Under the pieces are notes generated by a model, which was not told where the DNA came from, searched no databases, and saw only the letters and a program-made list of their open reading frames with translations. Source: Antedon mediterranea (Eukaryota; Echinodermata; Crinoidea; Comatulida; Antedonidae). From it: DNA of 64,000 nucleotides. The stretch is from assembly GCF_964355755.1 (NCBI RefSeq), contig NC_092670.1, positions 21,079,201 to 21,143,200 of the forward strand. The letters are read 5' to 3'. This document shows positions 1,326-52,400 of the stretch, piece after piece (positions within the stretch are counted from its first letter, which is position 1; the number at the start of each line of letters is the position of its first letter). Both the position numbers and the translations under genes were made by a program.

Positions 1326-4300
1326 CTCACGAACCGGAACTGTCTGTGACGTGTTGTCATAGACTGAGACAGGCTCAGTGTGAATTCCCTTCAGAGCATC
1401 CTCCATTGCAGGCCATGTTACAATGGTTGATGGGTCCGGCCATACATTCAACTTGTTATTAAAGTCATTCTGTGAATTAAGATGTTAGCAGATAAATCTT
1501 AATTAATCAAGAATCATAATATTAATAGAGTTAGGTAGCCAAGTGGTTAGGACACTTGACTGTCATACAGAGAGACTCCCAGTTTACTCAGATGTAAATA
1601 AGTACTTGGTTGAAAATACTAGGTAGGATAAGGTGGTATGGAAAGGAACTGGCCACCCTACCACATAAAGCCGAGTCTTAGTAAAATGAGCTCCCAACAG
1701 CTCATTACCCTACGTTAAAAAATAAAAATTGGACTTACCTTTATCTTTTTTACTATTAATGCTTATTTTAGAAAATATGGAGATTATACTGACATTTCAT
1801 TACTAGTGTTTATCTTGCCTGGTATATATTTTATGGACATTTCTACAGCAATATTACAGTATGTAACCTACTGTGTATTAAATATTTCAAATCTCACCTT
1901 CTCATTTGAAATGATTTTTAAACTTACCAAAAGGGATTGTAATTCTTGTATCTTGTCATTTGACGACGAAGATTCCTCTAATTTTCGTATTCTTTCATCA
2001 GCGCTATTACATTTATCTTCAACCTTAAAAAAAATCAAAATTTTTAAATTCAATGTGGTTAATTTCATTGAGAAAAAGGATCCATTTAAAGTAATTTGAA
2101 CTCAAATATACTGAATCGGCGAATTTGATTTAATCAAATACAAACCTTCATAATCATTATTATCAATCACATTATTTTTAGATTAAACAGATTACTATAA
2201 TTAATTGGCTTTAATTACTTAGGAAACGCACAATTAATTTAGTTTCTCATTATATTCCAGTACGCACCGTGATACAATGGGTCGCCATCTCAAATTAATC
2301 AGTATTGTGATAGCTACTGTAAAAACCCACATTTTAATCAATTGATTTAATAAAAAAAAACTAAAGTACCTCTTTGATCAAGGATTTATAGTTATCTAAC
2401 TCTGATTTCCAATCTGAAGTTTGACTTTTAAGGTCATTGAACTCTGACATCATATGTTCCATCATGCTCATAAGCTGTAAGAATAGAAAAGAATGATTAC
2501 ATGGTAAGTACAGTAAAAAAGGTACAGTATGTGACGACTTAATTTCTTGAGAAATAAAAATTATATATATATATATACTGTTATATATCCAATCTGCAGA
2601 CAGTACTGTTTCGATCTTATTAGATCTCGTCAGTGCAGCTCAGGTGTCGAAATGAAATGTACCGCAGAACTGGCACAATATATAGGCTGAGCCAGGTATA
2701 TGGGACATGGTACACTGATTATGAACACAAAGAGATATATATACAGGGTATATATGAAAATACTAGGTAGGAAGGTGACATTGACAATGACAAAGTAGTC
2801 CTCGTTGGTGATTTTAATTCTGATCCAAAGAAAAAATTTGGTAACGAATTGATTGATTTTTGCACTGAGTATAACTTGGTTATATCTGATTTGGAATACT
2901 TTGGTCATTACTCAGATACGTTTACTTATTTTAGTGATGCTCACAGTACCACAAGTTGGTTAGACCATGTTGTGAGCACTCATACTGTAGTTCCCATTCT
3001 CTGTTGTGTAATTTTATAGTTAATTATGATTGTACATGTGTTCTGATCACTTTCCTATTTCGTTTGACTATTTAGGGATTGATATTTGTGACGATTGTAA
3101 TGACAAGGGTGAAAATATGCATGAATCCTCAAAAATTACCAAAGTTAACTGGAATAATGTTAAGAGGGAGGATATAAACAATTTTAATGAGATAACTGAA
3201 TCCTTACCTAGTAACCTTACTCTCAATTGCGATGGTTTACTTTGTAATGATTCCTCATGTAAAGATGAATGCCATTGCAATGATATTAGTGATTTATATG
3301 ACAATATTATTGAGTGTCTGAAAGTCAGTTTCGAGTGGTGTTTTAAGTCGACTAAAAATCAAAAAGTCAATGTTGTCCCTGGGTGAACGAGTAGCTGGAT
3401 TTCATAAACATGCCCGGGAAGCATTTTTGAAGTGGCGTGGGTTGGGTAAACCCAGATATGGCCACATCTATGAACACATGAAAATCACTAGATCTAATTT
3501 CAAAAATGCCCTCAGAAAGTGTAAATCCAACGAAGAAATGCTAAGGGCGGACTCGATGGCCAAGTCTTTTGACGATAAGGACTATAATAGTTTCTGGGGT
3601 AAGGTTAAGAAATCCAGCTACGCCAATTCCCAGTCTAACATTATTGGTAGTGCTAAAGGGGAAAATGAAATTTGTGACCTATGGCGTCAACATTTCTCCG
3701 ATTTATTTAATTGTATTGACTCATCTGAGCATAAGACTTTTGTTAAGGAAACTCTTGAAAACTGTACAGACGGTGAAATTGATGTTTCACCCCATAATAT
3801 TAAGCTATTAATTGACAAATTGCCCAATGCTAAAGCAGCGGGATATGATGGTCTATGCAATGAGCATTTCAAATTCGCTTCTGAGCGACTTAGTATTATT
3901 TTAAGTGTATGTTTTAAGGCTATGTTTGTTCACGGGTTTGTTCCAAGTAATCTCACAAAAGTCACGCTTGTGCCGGTAATTAAATCTAAATCAGGGAATA
4001 TCACTGATAAAGGGAATTATCGGCCAATAGCTTTGGCATGTGTAGCTTCTAAACTTCTAGAGTCTGTAATGATAAAACATTGTGGTAATTCACTGGACTT
4101 CCATGACAACCAGTTTGCCTTCAAATCTGGTCACTCAACCGAATTGTGTATATTTGCTCTTAAACAGATTATCGAGCATTACAACAATCATGGTAGCCCA
4201 GTTTATTGCTGTTTCTTGGACGCTAGCAAAGCCTTTGATAAAATGAACCACTGGACACTTTTCAAGACCCTAATTGACAGGGGTACCCCTTCACCTGTAG

Positions 4301-7300
4301 TTAAGATTCTGAGGTCATGGTATAGGAATCAGGAATTTGTTGTCAGGTGGGGAAGTTCCGTTTCCGATTCTTTCACTGTTCGTAATGGGCTTCGCCAGGG
4401 AGGCGTTATGTCCCCTCTACTTTATAATGTGTACACTGATCCGTTAACTGTTGAACTGACTAAGTCAAAAGAAGGTTGTGAAATTAACAGTCTCAAACTG
4501 AATTGCCTAAGCTTTGCCGATGACTTGGTCCTTTTGGCTCCGTCAGTGACTGGCTTACAAAGCCTAATTGGACTCTGTGAAGGTTTTGCTAGTGACCATG
4601 ATATTACTTTTAATGAAACCAAATACAAATGCTTGCTATTTTGCCCGAAAGTCCGCAACCTCAAAGGTGTTCCACATATTACCTTAAATTGGGCACCTCT
4701 AATCATTGATAATTCAATAACCTATATTGGTCATGTGATCAGTAATAACCTGAGTGATGAAAGTGACATCAAACGTCAATATCGATCTATTTGCATTAGG
4801 GCCAACTCTCTAAATAGAAAGTTTGGAAAATGTTCTACTAAGACTAAATGTTATCTATTTAAGAGTTACTGTGTCAGCATGTACTGGTTCAATCTTATGG
4901 TGTAGATATAATAAGAGCACTCTGAGATCACTGAAAGTATGTTATAACAATGCCTTACGTTTGCTGCTGAAGCAGCCTAGACATTGTAGTGCAAGCATGA
5001 TGTTTGTCTTAAATGACGTCCCATCCTTTGATGAGTTTATTAGAAAATCTGTTTTTAGTTTTTAAAATCGTGTGAACGCAAGTAGTAAAATTCCTTGATC
5101 ATGGCCATTAATCGCCACGTTCTTAATGTGTCAAGAATGCACATACAATGGAAAGCTTTGTTGCATTGACTTTATATATTTACATATCTTTGTTTTTGTT
5201 CTATGAGCTGTTAGATTAAGATTTTTTTTTTCTCTCTCCTTTGCTATGGATATAATATTATGTCACCATGATATTCCGAAATAAAAAGATAAATGAAATG
5301 AATGAAAATAATATAATAAACTGATGAAGGGCTATTGTGCCCGAAACTCTGCTAATTTTTCTGGCTGTGTTACTTTATCATTTTGATTTAGCTTTTTGCT
5401 CATTTTATACCGGATACCCACAGCATTGTCATTTTGTTCAGTACTTTGCCTTTGGATTTATAATACAATAAACATGTAAATTCGTAAAAATCATGTACAC
5501 AGTACAGTAGGCCTACTATACTCATTTATTATTCTAAAAAGAAATCCATTGGAAAAAAGTATAGGTTCCCTGTGTGAAAAGTAATTAATTCGTAGGCCTA
5601 TGTGTAATGAGGCATAAAAACCAACAGAATTGTAGTAAACAATTTCTTGCAACCATAGCAATCGTATGGCCAAAGGATTGCAATTTACAATAAAGTAGTG
5701 TGAAATGCGTGTTTGTATAATACTATTATTATTTCCATATTTTTTGCTTTATTGATCATACCACAAGAATAAGCAAAATGCCTTTGAAAGAAAAAATCAT
5801 TAAATTTATTAAACTGTACACAGGTTTAAGCTCATTTTACTCAAGAGTGATTAATAATTGCATTTTAACAACAACAAAAAACAACCAAACATGAATATGG
5901 AAAGCAAAAGAGACATAAATTTTACATCCTAAATTTGAAAGATCCCATTCTTAGGTTTCAAATTGAAAGATCAGTGTCCGCGTGAGACAATTAGCATTAA
6001 AGCTCTCTTATTTGTAAAGCAAATAAGTCTTGAGTACCATTTTAAAAGCAAGACACAAAATCAATTAGAATCCCCTTCAAGACTTTGCTTTACTAATGTA
6101 TATACAATCAATAATTACGTTAAAAAACATTTCAAAATACTATGCTAAACAGGATGTTTGCTGGTTTGTGTGTGGGATACACGGTCATCTTAGGTTGTTA
6201 TGGCATTATACCCACAACTCTGTTAAGCTCTGTCTACACTATCAAACTAGTTTGACAAAAAAGTGTGATGTGCCCAATACAAATATGGTAATGGTATGAC
6301 ATCATCATGTCCAATCCATACAGTATGGGCACATCAACCTTTGTACATATTGATCAACCAAATTATGGAAAAACTTCCAAATGACACAAAAACAAACTTT
6401 CAACTTTTAAAAATTCAATCCAAAATATTACAGATAATGTAATAGAGAGGTTTCGTAATCTTACGAATACGATAACGAAAACGAATACGTCACGCACACG
6501 TATTCGTTTTCGTAAGCCATAAAAAAATCTGTTTCGCATGGCAACGAAATATTGAGGCGCGTCCAAAATATGACTGCGGTAAATTTGGGCGAAGCGCAGA
6601 TTGCTTGGTGCTTGGCTGCCTAGGCCTAGTGTAACATCAAAGCGAGTGAAGACTTTAAAAAACTGCTATTTATCAAAATTGACCTGGCATTTTAGTAAAT
6701 TACTTTAGTAAATTACTTTCAATAAATCTATAATTATATTATAATCATGAATCATTCCTAATTCAAATGCAAAATGTGCAAAATAGATCAAAAACTATAC
6801 TTGTTTTGTAGTTACGAATATGACTGGTGATATTCGTCAACACGAATACGCTTTACGAATATGAAATGGGGATCAGCTCAAAAGTTTCACAAATGTATGA
6901 CGTACCGTTTTTGTTATCGTATTCGTAAGGTTGCGAAACCTCCCTATTATTAATATATTTTACCTTGAATTACCTTTTTGTAAATGTGTGTATAATGTAA
7001 ATGATTGTATTAGTTGTTAATTACTTTTCTTATATTGTTAATGTTCTCTACTGGACCACTTTGGAAATCAATGATTTAGCACTGAAAGTGTCATTCAGAA
7101 TAAAATAAAAATCACTTTTTTTTTCACATAACATTTGATAGTGTAGACAGAGCTTAGCATATACAAATATTCTACTTTCAAATTGTTAATAAAAAAATTA
7201 CAGTATATAACTTTCTTAACTGACTGTTTCTTTTATTAACAATCAACCATACAGTAGACAAATAATAGGGGCAGATCCTCCAGAAATTACTGTAGAAAAC

Positions 7301-24081: not shown

Positions 24082-27000
24082 ATGGCTTCTGAAGAAAACA
24101 AACTTGATGATGTATATGATGCTGTTATAGTTGGTGGTGGAGTGGCAGGGGCAACTGCTGCATATCGGTTGCAAAACGTTTTGTCAAAGAAGAAGGGTGT
24201 AAACAACAACGATGGGTGCAAAGTACTTCTACTAGAAGCCAAAGGTAGGAGATAGCTCATCACTTGAACTTGGGTGTCTAACAACAGTATATGCCTGTAC
24301 ATATTTTTTTATTCGTAATATAATATTTTACATATATTTTATTTTGCTACATAACATTAACAGATAGCTGGATCCAGGATTTTAAAATACTGGACCTAGG
24401 AGTGGGAGTGGGGGGGGGGGGGGAGAAGAAATTGTAATGTTTTGCATTGTATATGCCAAAAGGTTCACCCGCCAGCTCTGTGTGTGTCAGAGGGGAGGAT
24501 CTAAGTTCGGTGAGGAGGGTGGGGAAAATTAAAAGAATAGTAGACACCATATAATTTTTCGGTCTATTTTTATACTATTTACAGCAAGGCTTGGAGGTCG
24601 AACATTGACTGAATCAGTAAAAGTGAATGATGGACAAGAAATGTTTGACCTTGGAGGTCAGTGGATTGGAAGGTAAACATCTTGGCTGCAATACTGCAGT
24701 ATAGTATAGTTATTGCACTATTGCTATTAGTACAGTACCTGTATAAGCAATGTGTTATTTAGTCCATGATGTACTATAAAACAAACTACATTTTACGTAG
24801 ATTATAAATGTTCCACTTTTAACTTTACAGAACACAGCATCATATTTTGTGGTTAATGAAGGAGTTGGGGATAGAATACTACGAACAGTATACATTGGGG
24901 TCAAAATTCCTATGTCTTGGTGACGGCAAGATCCGTAAATACAACTCAAGTCTTCCAAAACTGTCATTCATGGCACTGCTTGACCTTGGCAATGTTATGC
25001 TGCAGGTCAGACAATGCTCAATTAATCAATAAATCAATCAATTGATCCGTCAATCAAATGATTATTAATCAATCCATTGATCAATCAATCAACTAATTCA
25101 TTTATCAATAAATCAATCAATTGATCAGTCAATCAAATGATTATTAATCAATCCATTGATCAATCAATCAACTAACTCATTTATCAATAAATCAATCAAT
25201 TGATCAGTCAATAAAAAGATTATTAAATCAATCTATTGATCAATCAATGAATCCATTCATTTGATTAATAATCAATTCATTGAACAATTAATCAGTCAAC
25301 TAATTGATCAATTAATTAATCTCAATCAATAACAATCTATTGAAATGTGTAAAATCCTTATTGGTTTCATAGATAAATCGTATGGGTAAAAAGGTGCCTC
25401 CTGACAGCATACATAAATGCAAACAGGCTGAGGAATGGGACAGTATGACAGTGGACACATTTATAAGGAAGACTATGTGGACCAAAGGTAACAGACAAGG
25501 ATCACCTGACCCCACCCTATACCTATAGTCTAGGTTCTAGACTCTATTTCAAATTAATATTGGTAAAAAGATAAATATTTTGGCACACATGGCATTTCAT
25601 ACATATAATACCTGAGTTCGAAATATTTTCTAGATTGGTGCATTAACATAAACAAGCACGAATGTGCAATACTCGGGGTACAGCGAAAGAAGCTGTAATG
25701 ACGTCATAAGACCGGATGTAACGTCACGTACACATCAATAACCGCGCTACCAAATACGGCTATACGGTACCATCTTCGAGACGTGATATGGCTGCATCCG
25801 GTTTGAAATTAAAAAATCCGGCTCTATAGCTTTGAGGACATGTCCCTGTAGTATATTCATGCTAAATCCGAGCTCAATACTACAACGAATAAGGGAGGAG
25901 TAGTACTTTATAAATCGCACTTTTTGCTCAATAGTGTCCGGATGGAAGAAGAAGAGGAAAAGATGAGAGAGTCCTAGACTCAGGTACCCCGAGTAATAAA
26001 ACGAGATATACTCTATATCATATTACGTATACAGTATATTTCACCATAAAGTTAAAGAAAAATAGGTTTCGCCAGGGCTCGAACCGGGACCTTCTGCGTG
26101 TTAAGCAGACTTGACAACCACTACACTACGAAACCTCTTACAATAAAAATGTGGGTTACACAAAGTTTTTTAATCCATTTAAATTACAAATAAATATGGT
26201 AATAAGCACAAAGCAAAATAAACATGTGTAAAAGTGATAATTACCGATTACACAAAATAAGTATTTTAAAAAATAATAAAAATAAGATATACTGTGTATA
26301 ATTATCATATTGCGTATACAGTACTTTTCACCATAAAGTTTAAAAAAAAAAGGTTTCGTCCGGGCTCGAACCAGGTATCTTCTGCGTGTTAAGCAAACGT
26401 GATAACCACTACGAATGTGCGATACTCGGGGTACAGCAAATGAAGCTGTAATGACGTCATAAGACGGGATGTGACGTCAACTACACATAATAACCTACCA
26501 AATACGGCTATATGGTACCATCTTCAAGACGTCATATGGCTGCATCCGGTTTGAAATTAAAAAATCCGGCTCTATAGATTTGAGGACATGTCCCTGTAGT
26601 ATATTCATGCCAAATCCCAGCTCAATACTACAACTAATAAGGGAGGAGTAGTACTTTAAAAATCGCACTTTTTACTCAATAGTGTCCAGATGGAGAAGGA
26701 GGAGAAAATGAGTAAGTCCTAGACTCGGGTACCCCGAATAAAAATACAATACAGACTGAGGTAAAGTCTATCCAACCTCCAGTGGTGGTCCATGATTTTA
26801 AAATATTTGAGTGTCCACTATATTTTATAACAACAAACCCTGTTAATTGAAACGTGTTTTACTACAGTCCAACAAGTACATATTCCGATTTATTTGGTCC
26901 TTGCAGAAATTCATGACAGGCACAATCAGTCACATAAAAATACAAATTAAAAAAATAAATAAATATCCCTTGTAAATGTTACACAGTTTATAAAATATAA

Positions 27001-49400: not shown

Positions 49401-52400
49401 AGATATTCCGTTCTGAAAAAATTACAAAAATGACATGCTTAATATTAAAATATTAAATACCGTATAGACACTGATGTTGTGTTTTGTTGAATGTGTGGGA
49501 ACTATAATACTGTTTGTTTGTTTCATTTAATTATTTTCCACACATTGAACAAAAGGAACAGAAATATAAACTATAAGAAAAGAAAAGAGAAGACAATGTG
49601 TGAAAGGAGATCAAAATAACTAAAAATTACTTTAAGCATTGACCACCTGAACAGTAGGTCTCATTTTGTAACTAAAAGAAAAACAGTTGGAATAGGAATT
49701 TGTTTTCGTTTTATCATCAATGTACAACTTAAGAACAATCAAAATATCATATTGTACCCCTACTAAAACTTATATCTAAATTGTCAAAACACTAAAATTG
49801 ACTATCACTACTATTTCTATTGATGTTTCTTCGTTCAAACCTCATAAATTCAATGATAACAGAGCGTCATTTGTGCATGCCTATATCACTATGCACTTAC
49901 CCTGCTCTGAACGGCGGTAAACCTGCAGACATTTGGTAAATAATTGCTCCCAGCGCCCATAAGTCAGAGCTAAAATATTACAAGAATAAAAGTTTAATCA
50001 AATTTAGTGGCAAGCAGACGGCATCAACAAAAGGTTAAAGATCACCATATTTGTTTGTTTTTATTTTATTCAGCCAAAATCAACAGCGATAATTACCGCC
50101 ACTAACAGGTTTGAAACAAACAAAGCCAGGACTGCTTAAAGCACCTTGACTGGTCAAAACATTGATCAAGGGCTTCTCTCGTCCAGTGCCCACCTTGACC
50201 AGAGGAAAGGCATGTGCCAATACCTCTGAGGAAGATACTAGATGCAGGGGCTGCCATAAGAGTCAGCAATGCTGATTTCAAATGCTTAACGGGACCCCAG
50301 CTCCATATACAGCACCCGAAATTCCCAGATGATCTCCCACCTAAGCTCTAACCAGGTCCAACGTTGCTTAACTTTGGTGATCTGACGAGAACCGTGTTTC
50401 AACGTTGTAAAGCTGTATATGCATTGTTACTTACCATTTACTTGCAGACTTCTCTACTCTCTCCGTCCTATTTGTTGTAAGAAGTTCCGGTGATACATAC
50501 TGTGCTGTTCCAACGAATGAATTTGCACGTACAATTCCTTAAAAAAAAGTCATTAAATATTATTAAATGAATAATTGTGATTTAGCAAATTTATTTCTGA
50601 GAACCTCTGATGTGGTTGAATCTAGCCTTAGATTTCAGTAGCCAGTGGCGTAGCAGCTTTGAGCGCTTACTGGCTAAACCTAGGGCCCAGAGCTCAATGG
50701 GCCTCAGAGCATAAACAGTTTAATGCAACTACTCAGTGTTGGAGGGCCCGTTGGGAGTGCTTTTGCCCTGTGTGTTACGCCACTCTCTGTAGCGACATCC
50801 CTTGTCTAAGAATTGTTCTGAACCGCAACATTTTCCCTCCATCATGTTTCATATCTTACCATCTGTGCTATCAGCCTCTAGAATTTTTGCTGAACCAAAA
50901 TCGGTAATTTGAATATGCCATTCTTCATTTAGTAAAATATTTTCTGGTTTTAAATCCCTAAAAAAAATCATGAAGCAATATTAATATTTATACAGAAAGC
51001 AAAAGAATGTATAGAAATTAAGGTTGCATGACACTGTACGTCTTGTAATGTAGAATGCATTAAAACAAACAGTATTTCTGCAGTAACTGCAGTAAAATAC
51101 ATTTTAGACATACCTATGAATTATTCCCAAGCTGTGCATATGTTCAAGTGCTAGTACAATTTCGGCCGCGTAAAACCTTGTTGTGATCTCGTCAAATGAG
51201 CCAACTTTATGTATGTACGGTAATAACTCTCCACGCTTTGCTAAACTTAAACCAAAATCTGTTAATCAGAAGTTAAGAAATATTCAACAAACATGATGGC
51301 CTTATCTGCAACAAAATGAAGCTCGGTAAAATGCGGGTTGAATTCAAATTGTAATAATGACAAGATTATTTACTCATAATAATATTAATCATATAATTTT
51401 TTTTCCCAACATTTTTACATTGGTGATATTTTCATCTTTATAGTTAAGGATACATAGCCTCTCTTTGTCTTGAAATGTGAAGTAAAGCTTAACAAAGAAC
51501 GGATGATTCAAACGGGCCAGGACGTCACGTTCCCGCATAACATATTTCTGTTTGTTTTCTCGGATCATTTGCCGCTTCGTTAATATTTTAACTGAAAACA
51601 TAAAAATAAGAATGTCAATATAAATAGTATTATGCTGCACCATACTGCAGTATTTAGATAATTTGGTAATGTGGTAAGCAGGCAACTTCAGTAAATTTCA
51701 AGAAGTTAATGTTTAATTTTTTATTATCGTTTCAGGAACTTATGTTGTTTATATTATCCACACCTGCAGCTATCATCAATATAAATAATATACTAACTTA
51801 TAATTACTGCAACAAGTAGAGTACATGAATAAACTATATGTGTATCAAAGGTGATAAAGTAAGTTGTTTGTGAAGTAAATGTCTAGCTAATTCCCAGGGT
51901 TTGTTGTTGATAATAATCACCACTCCCTCATAACATAACTTCAGAGCAATATGAGCTTATAAGGCCTGCTACATTCATCATTCTATATGCGTCACCATGT
52001 CATGTTACTTGTGAAACTCAAAACAAAATACTTAGTATTTATCTGTCAAGATGGTATAGTTTAAGACATTGCATCATTTCCATGACAACAGCATGTTTTG
52101 AATATATCACTTATTTTACTCAACAAGTAAACAAGTAATAATAATAATAATCACTTTTTTTTATTTTCCTATTTCAATTTGTTTTGTCTGGTATCACAGT
52201 ACTATTAATTGTTTACAATTCTTTAGGCTAGTTACAATTGGCAAATTGAAAGTCCAAACTACAAAAATGACATGCTTAATGTTAAATAACGTATAGGCAC
52301 TGATGTTGTGTTTTGTTGAATGTGTTGGCCTAGTGGTATGTGGTGGGAGCTATAATACTAGGTCTCATATTGTAACTAAAAGAAAAACAGTTGGTCCAGA

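Follow-up and report, generated by a model that had tools for sequence, protein, structure and literature searches.

Hammerhead_HH9 (Rfam RF02275) is an intronic ribozyme of amniotes, conserved at a single locus. Animal non-LTR retrozymes consist of tandem 150-450-bp units that carry type I hammerheads and are expressed as circles of 170-400 nt (Cervera & de la Pena 2020, PMC7229834). Penelope-like elements (PLEs) have been named as their likely but unproven helpers. The 2020 study left open which agent inserts the retrozymes and how their reverse transcription is primed, and described dimer action for the hammerheads of newts and axolotl. In the PLE Poseidon PAc of Anolis, reverse transcription begins internally, at a site that is not homologous to the target (PMC11167929).

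Here we describe a hammerhead of the crinoid Antedon mediterranea, found in a window of 64,000 nucleotides (the whole stretch of DNA that was analysed). It is read as part of a 5'-truncated, non-autonomous animal retrozyme with a 281-bp unit, which would have a life cycle involving a circle or multimer, TA-primed insertion and, most likely, a PLE as helper; we assign this reading a probability of about 0.87.

Like the metazoan non-LTR retrozymes (PMC7229834), the Antedon family has a unit within the 150-450-bp range, dimers to multimers, low GC content and a type I hammerhead, it lacks ORFs and LTR features, and it coexists with PLEs, so that it fits this class in the defining features accessible from a genome sequence. 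In contrast to them, the Antedon copies are mostly truncated, their 3' end is nearly always the same, about 10 nt downstream of the cleavage site, and the family strongly prefers (TA)n for insertion; as far as the searched literature goes, this 3' end and this preference are new. The satellite hammerheads HHR_Amex1/2 of newts and axolotl share the very short stem III, the palindromic tetraloop and an expected dimer function, but the Antedon stem III has 3 bp, and its copies are dispersed and truncated instead of numbering tens of thousands. Alignment to Hammerhead_HH9 showed a matching layout, with a 4/3 internal loop interrupting stem I, the CUGCA/UGCAG stem and a very short stem III, although the Antedon ribozyme scores below the gathering score of that family and is a repeat copy instead of a conserved single locus. 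PLEs with minimal hammerheads, such as Poseidon PAc (PMC11167929), resemble the family in their AT-rich targets, tandem copies and internal start of reverse transcription, a start that is proposed here for Antedon as well; the Antedon unit differs in having no ORF and in a putative start site that is AU-complementary to the TA target.

A type I hammerhead ribozyme in the window

The complete hammerhead that the sequence-only reading had reported on the minus strand was confirmed base by base and coordinate by coordinate through direct reading of that strand, and its predicted cleavage site, after a GUC triplet, was also correct (Table 1). The invariant core bases, the three stems and the open stem I of a type I hammerhead are all present. 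A search with the full pattern, tolerating 3 mismatches, gave one match in the 64-kb window and none in 100 shuffles, while the looser core CTGANGAN14GAAAC matched once, against 0.01 expected; this is the sole hammerhead core of its kind in the window.

The covariance search that had been proposed as a check gave a divided answer. A local search of a 651-bp region found HH9 at 28.5 bits (E=5.5e-5), and sister copies reached up to 34.4 bits, all under the gathering score of 52 bits, so the ribozyme was not filed as an HH9 member; at gathering cut-offs, the Rfam search of the whole window did not report it. A whole-genome search with RF00008 gave no match, and since control genomes were equally silent this result is uninformative.

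Table 1. Features at and around the hammerhead ribozyme. Positions are those of the window unless a contig is given.
Feature	Position	Strand	Remarks
DUF4795 exons of host gene	C1:21075649-21076794	-	window begins farther right, at 21079201
Probable host-gene exon	2361-2475	-	AG...GT borders; minus-strand frame; fits an exon upstream of the DUF4795 exons
AT/TA-repeat flank, 3' of copy	2562-2588	-	target site or tail; from sequence; like the flanks of most copies
5'-truncated retrozyme copy	2589-2734	-	unit positions 138-281 (2734-2591) plus terminal GG (2590-2589); 97.9% identity to the 281-bp unit over 144 bp
Type I hammerhead ribozyme	2594-2638	-	stem I, core, stem II, stem III and GUC; direct reading, RF02275 28.5 bits, 119 genome copies of the core
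Stem I	2638-2634 with 2598-2594	-	CUGCA paired with UGCAG (5 bp)
Core	2633-2627	-	CUGACGA
Stem II	2626-2613	-	GAUCU/AGAUC (5 bp), loop AAUA
GAA	2612-2610	-
Stem III	2609-2600	-	ACA/UGU (3 bp), loop GUAC
C17	2599	-	predicted cleavage directly after (GUC)
Possible internal Pol III promoter	2643-2694	-	A-box-like TGGCTCAGCCTA at 2694-2683, B-box-like stretch at 2653-2643
TA-rich 5' flank	2735-2756	-	similar to the 3' flank; from sequence; possible target-site duplication
LINE-type retrotransposon fragment	2771-5315	+	endonuclease and RT domains; adjoins the retrozyme in the same probable intron
Decayed 3' fragment of PLE-B	5320-5459	+	ends TTTGGATTTAT; same probable intron, directly after the LINE; 91.6% and 95.7% identical to the 3' repeat of PLE-B

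For the 45-nt monomer a wrong fold is predicted, in which core ACUG pairs with CAGU of stem III, at -10.5 kcal/mol versus -7.0 kcal/mol for the hammerhead fold. The sequence ACAGUACUGU is perfectly palindromic and its self-duplex is predicted at -13.4 kcal/mol, in keeping with the dimer action of the newt and axolotl hammerheads (PMC7229834). The earlier view of the tiny stem III as the dimer-favouring type associated with retrozymes and Penelope elements agrees with these predictions and with its 3 palindromic base pairs. The single copy in the window is intact yet probably a weak cutter, since the monomer is predicted to misfold and the palindromic stem III favours dimers. A variant found at two loci has six additional bases and a longer stem III, and for an intact core with this insertion the hammerhead is the predicted minimum-energy fold.

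A dispersed 281-bp repeat family

The 354-Mb genome contains the pattern CTGANGAGN12CGAAACN6GTC 119 times in exact form, while the reversed control pattern does not occur in it. With a 260-bp query, many copies with about 88-98% identity were found dispersed across the eleven longest contigs (C1-C11), which represent almost all of the 354 Mb. The sequence common to 52 distinct copies is a 281-bp unit that ends 8-10 nt past the cleavage site. The total copy number is probably in the hundreds, under several published examples.

No flank common to the 52 copies was found beyond the unit and, with about 1.5 kb of flanking sequence included on these copies, neither a shared ORF nor an attached ORF with RT and GIY-YIG domains, as an autonomous PLE would carry, was detected. 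Each unit holds one type I hammerhead and no ORF, within the 150-450 bp of non-LTR retrozymes. In copies sampled without using the ribozyme, variation was 5.0% in the ribozyme columns versus 4.5% in the rest of the unit, and G8 was altered in several. Since the ribozyme varies like its surroundings and G8 can be changed, the inserted copies look neutral.

A pair of boxes resembling those of Pol III promoters was scored on the family unit, with agreement at 14 of 18 positions, a value attained by 14 of 1000 shuffles; relative to the family unit, the window copy has one more change in the B-box-like stretch. This is only suggestive of an internal Pol III promoter.

Insertion ends and target sites

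All loci were pooled for the analysis of insertion ends, namely the 52 described above and 20 selected through unit sequence outside the ribozyme, yielding 67 distinct insertions of 45-597 bp. More than one unit was found in 14 of the 67, in head-to-tail arrays of up to three units, as in non-LTR retrozymes, and the first unit is truncated in most of them; together with the 119 cores, these dimers and trimers provide the further and tandem copies that the sequence-only reading had suggested looking for. In one array (locus L103, 170-766), units 2 and 3 both begin at unit position 121 after GGATAT, and the period is shortened to about 170 bp.

The 5' starts of the insertions are spread across the 281-bp unit. 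At the other end, nearly all copies stop at a TTGG located about 10 nt downstream of the cleavage site, and (TA)n follows. Leaving aside ends where a further full unit follows, there are 59 distinct 3' ends; GGATAT follows CAGATT at 38 of them, and an AT/TA run of at least 8 lies within 30 bp at 42 (background positions, 1.3%). A TA run of at least 8 is also present just upstream of 27/67 insertions, versus 1.7% of the background. The copies therefore begin anywhere but share a stopping point, and their surroundings are TA repeats; because the flanks lie inside this microsatellite, target-site duplications are not resolvable.

Six insertions of 45-50 bp consist of the ribozyme only, with 5' ends clustered at the edge of stem I. 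This cluster may represent a reverse-transcription stop, and may partly result from the use of the ribozyme pattern as a query.

Penelope-like elements and other TA-associated families

Young PLEs with an intact ORF of 857 aa, containing RVT_1 and a weak GIY-YIG domain, are present in the genome, two copies being 99.4% identical. In one of them (locus L081, 435-3473) the 5' end is a long, nearly perfect palindrome made by the pseudo-LTRs (pLTRs); this palindrome matches Rfam mir-4856 at 43.2 bits, under the cut-off of 70 for that family.

A second group, PLE-B, is represented by a near-full element (locus L084) with pLTR-ORFs-pLTR organization, RT and GIY-YIG domains, and a frame break between the two ORFs. 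The PLE-B family core (CTGATGA...GAAA) is hammerhead-like: stem II and a stem III of 3 bp can be made out, but no obvious stem I. PLE-B ends in TTTGGATTT(AT)n, and 21 of 22 sampled ends lie in TA runs. The genome contains 856 occurrences of its 27-mer, which was found in exact form in 11 of the 52 retrozyme loci, against 0.39 expected; shared target choice suffices for this co-location and shared machinery is not required.

Homology between the start region of the retrozyme and the pLTR-ORF junction of PLE-B, noted by eye (TTGGAT ... TCTACTTT), was rejected. Neither free alignment (p 0.77), anchored alignment (p 0.11 and 0.28) nor a shared-word test (p 0.02 and 0.18) was judged to support it, and the likeness is reduced to the terminal TTGGAT, whose AT may derive from the target. 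A third family ending in TA repeats, family D (TTTCAGTATATCACCGGGCGGTTTAGAATTAATGTTCTTTGCCTGTTGTGTTTATATATA), was found in many retrozyme loci, and a TA target is therefore no distinguishing mark of PLE-B.

Proposed mobilisation of the retrozyme

After transcription of the retrozyme repeats, adjacent hammerheads would pair through their palindromic stem III and then cut, and a host ligase would circularise the monomers. With a nicked (TA)n target as primer, a reverse transcriptase from another element would initiate at TTGG-AUAU, immediately after stem I, on either the circle or multimer RNA that had not been cut; synthesis would stop after anything from 45 bp to more than two units. The sequence itself shows the anatomy of the ribozyme, the dispersed ORF-less 281-bp unit, its truncated multimers, the near-constant 3' end and the TA-repeat target, while cleavage, circularisation, target priming and the helper are inferred.

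The position of the 3' end bears directly on the template. A linear monomer cut by the hammerhead could not have been the template of the copies, because the point where they end would lie near its 5' terminus, about 10 nt away; the near-constant end downstream of the cut implies that the RNA used for insertion spanned the cleavage site unbroken, as in a circle or an uncut multimer. In tandem units AUAU directly follows TTGG, which would make annealing to a nicked TA repeat possible, and the TA-repeat target turns this priming step into a testable one.

Mobilisation by a PLE is likely on general grounds, and the (TA)n-targeting PLE-B is the best candidate that the genome sequence offers. A more specific proposal is target-primed reverse transcription on a circular template, where a PLE-type GIY-YIG nuclease would nick the TA repeat, the nicked DNA would anneal to the AU repeat that directly follows stem I, and PLE-B would be marked as the helper by the TTGGAT(AT)n end that it has in common with the retrozyme. 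We put it forward as possible but doubtful; if true, it would provide a specific helper and a priming mode for animal retrozymes, both left open in PMC7229834.

Alternative origins and the host gene

Insertion by a LINE instead of a PLE would make the retrozyme a SINE-like element on LINE machinery. The 5' truncation with a constant 3' end is LINE-like, the unit has possible Pol III boxes, and a LINE with endonuclease and RT domains adjoins the window copy; this LINE, however, terminates in an A-rich stretch and neither in (TA)n nor in TTGG, whereas PLE-B has the (AT)n terminus described above, and we consider LINE mobilisation unlikely. A quite improbable origin is from the pseudo-LTR of an autonomous PLE, with the copies as solo or truncated pLTR ends. 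PLEs do have tandem pLTRs with hammerheads and AT-rich targets (PMC11167929), and this genome contains PLEs with hammerhead-like pLTR motifs. Membership of such a pLTR was nevertheless rejected, because the units abut directly, at a period of about 281 bp with no ORF between them, and share neither an ORF nor a flank; moreover, the 281-bp unit matches PLE1 or PLE-B no better than chance.

There is a very small chance that the hammerhead is a domesticated intronic ribozyme, comparable to the amniote HH9 and HH10, that cuts the host pre-mRNA. HH9 is its best Rfam match and it has the sense orientation in a probable intron, but this copy forms part of a truncated mobile element, the core is intact at more than 100 sites instead of a unique locus (119 core copies), and the monomer is predicted to misfold. 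Nothing points to domestication, since the ribozyme is no more conserved than the rest of the unit in copies chosen by other unit parts, and this origin was rejected on the repeat family and that variation.

The sequence-only reading had located the ribozyme in an intron of a DUF4795 gene, on its sense strand. Minus-strand DUF4795 exons to the left of the window support the gene and its orientation, while the intron is probable and not proven, because the peptide of the nearest probable exon (2475-2361) had no match in a Pfam search. The notable character that had been given to this setting stands for the sense strand of the probable intron, but not for the position in the host gene, as the ribozyme belongs to a 5'-truncated mobile copy with more than 100 relatives with an intact core; the host transcript may be affected, and the intron setting in itself is of little consequence. 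Elsewhere in the window, Rfam identified a tRNA gene at 26064-26135 (-) and a single 5S rRNA gene at 50304-50420 (-).
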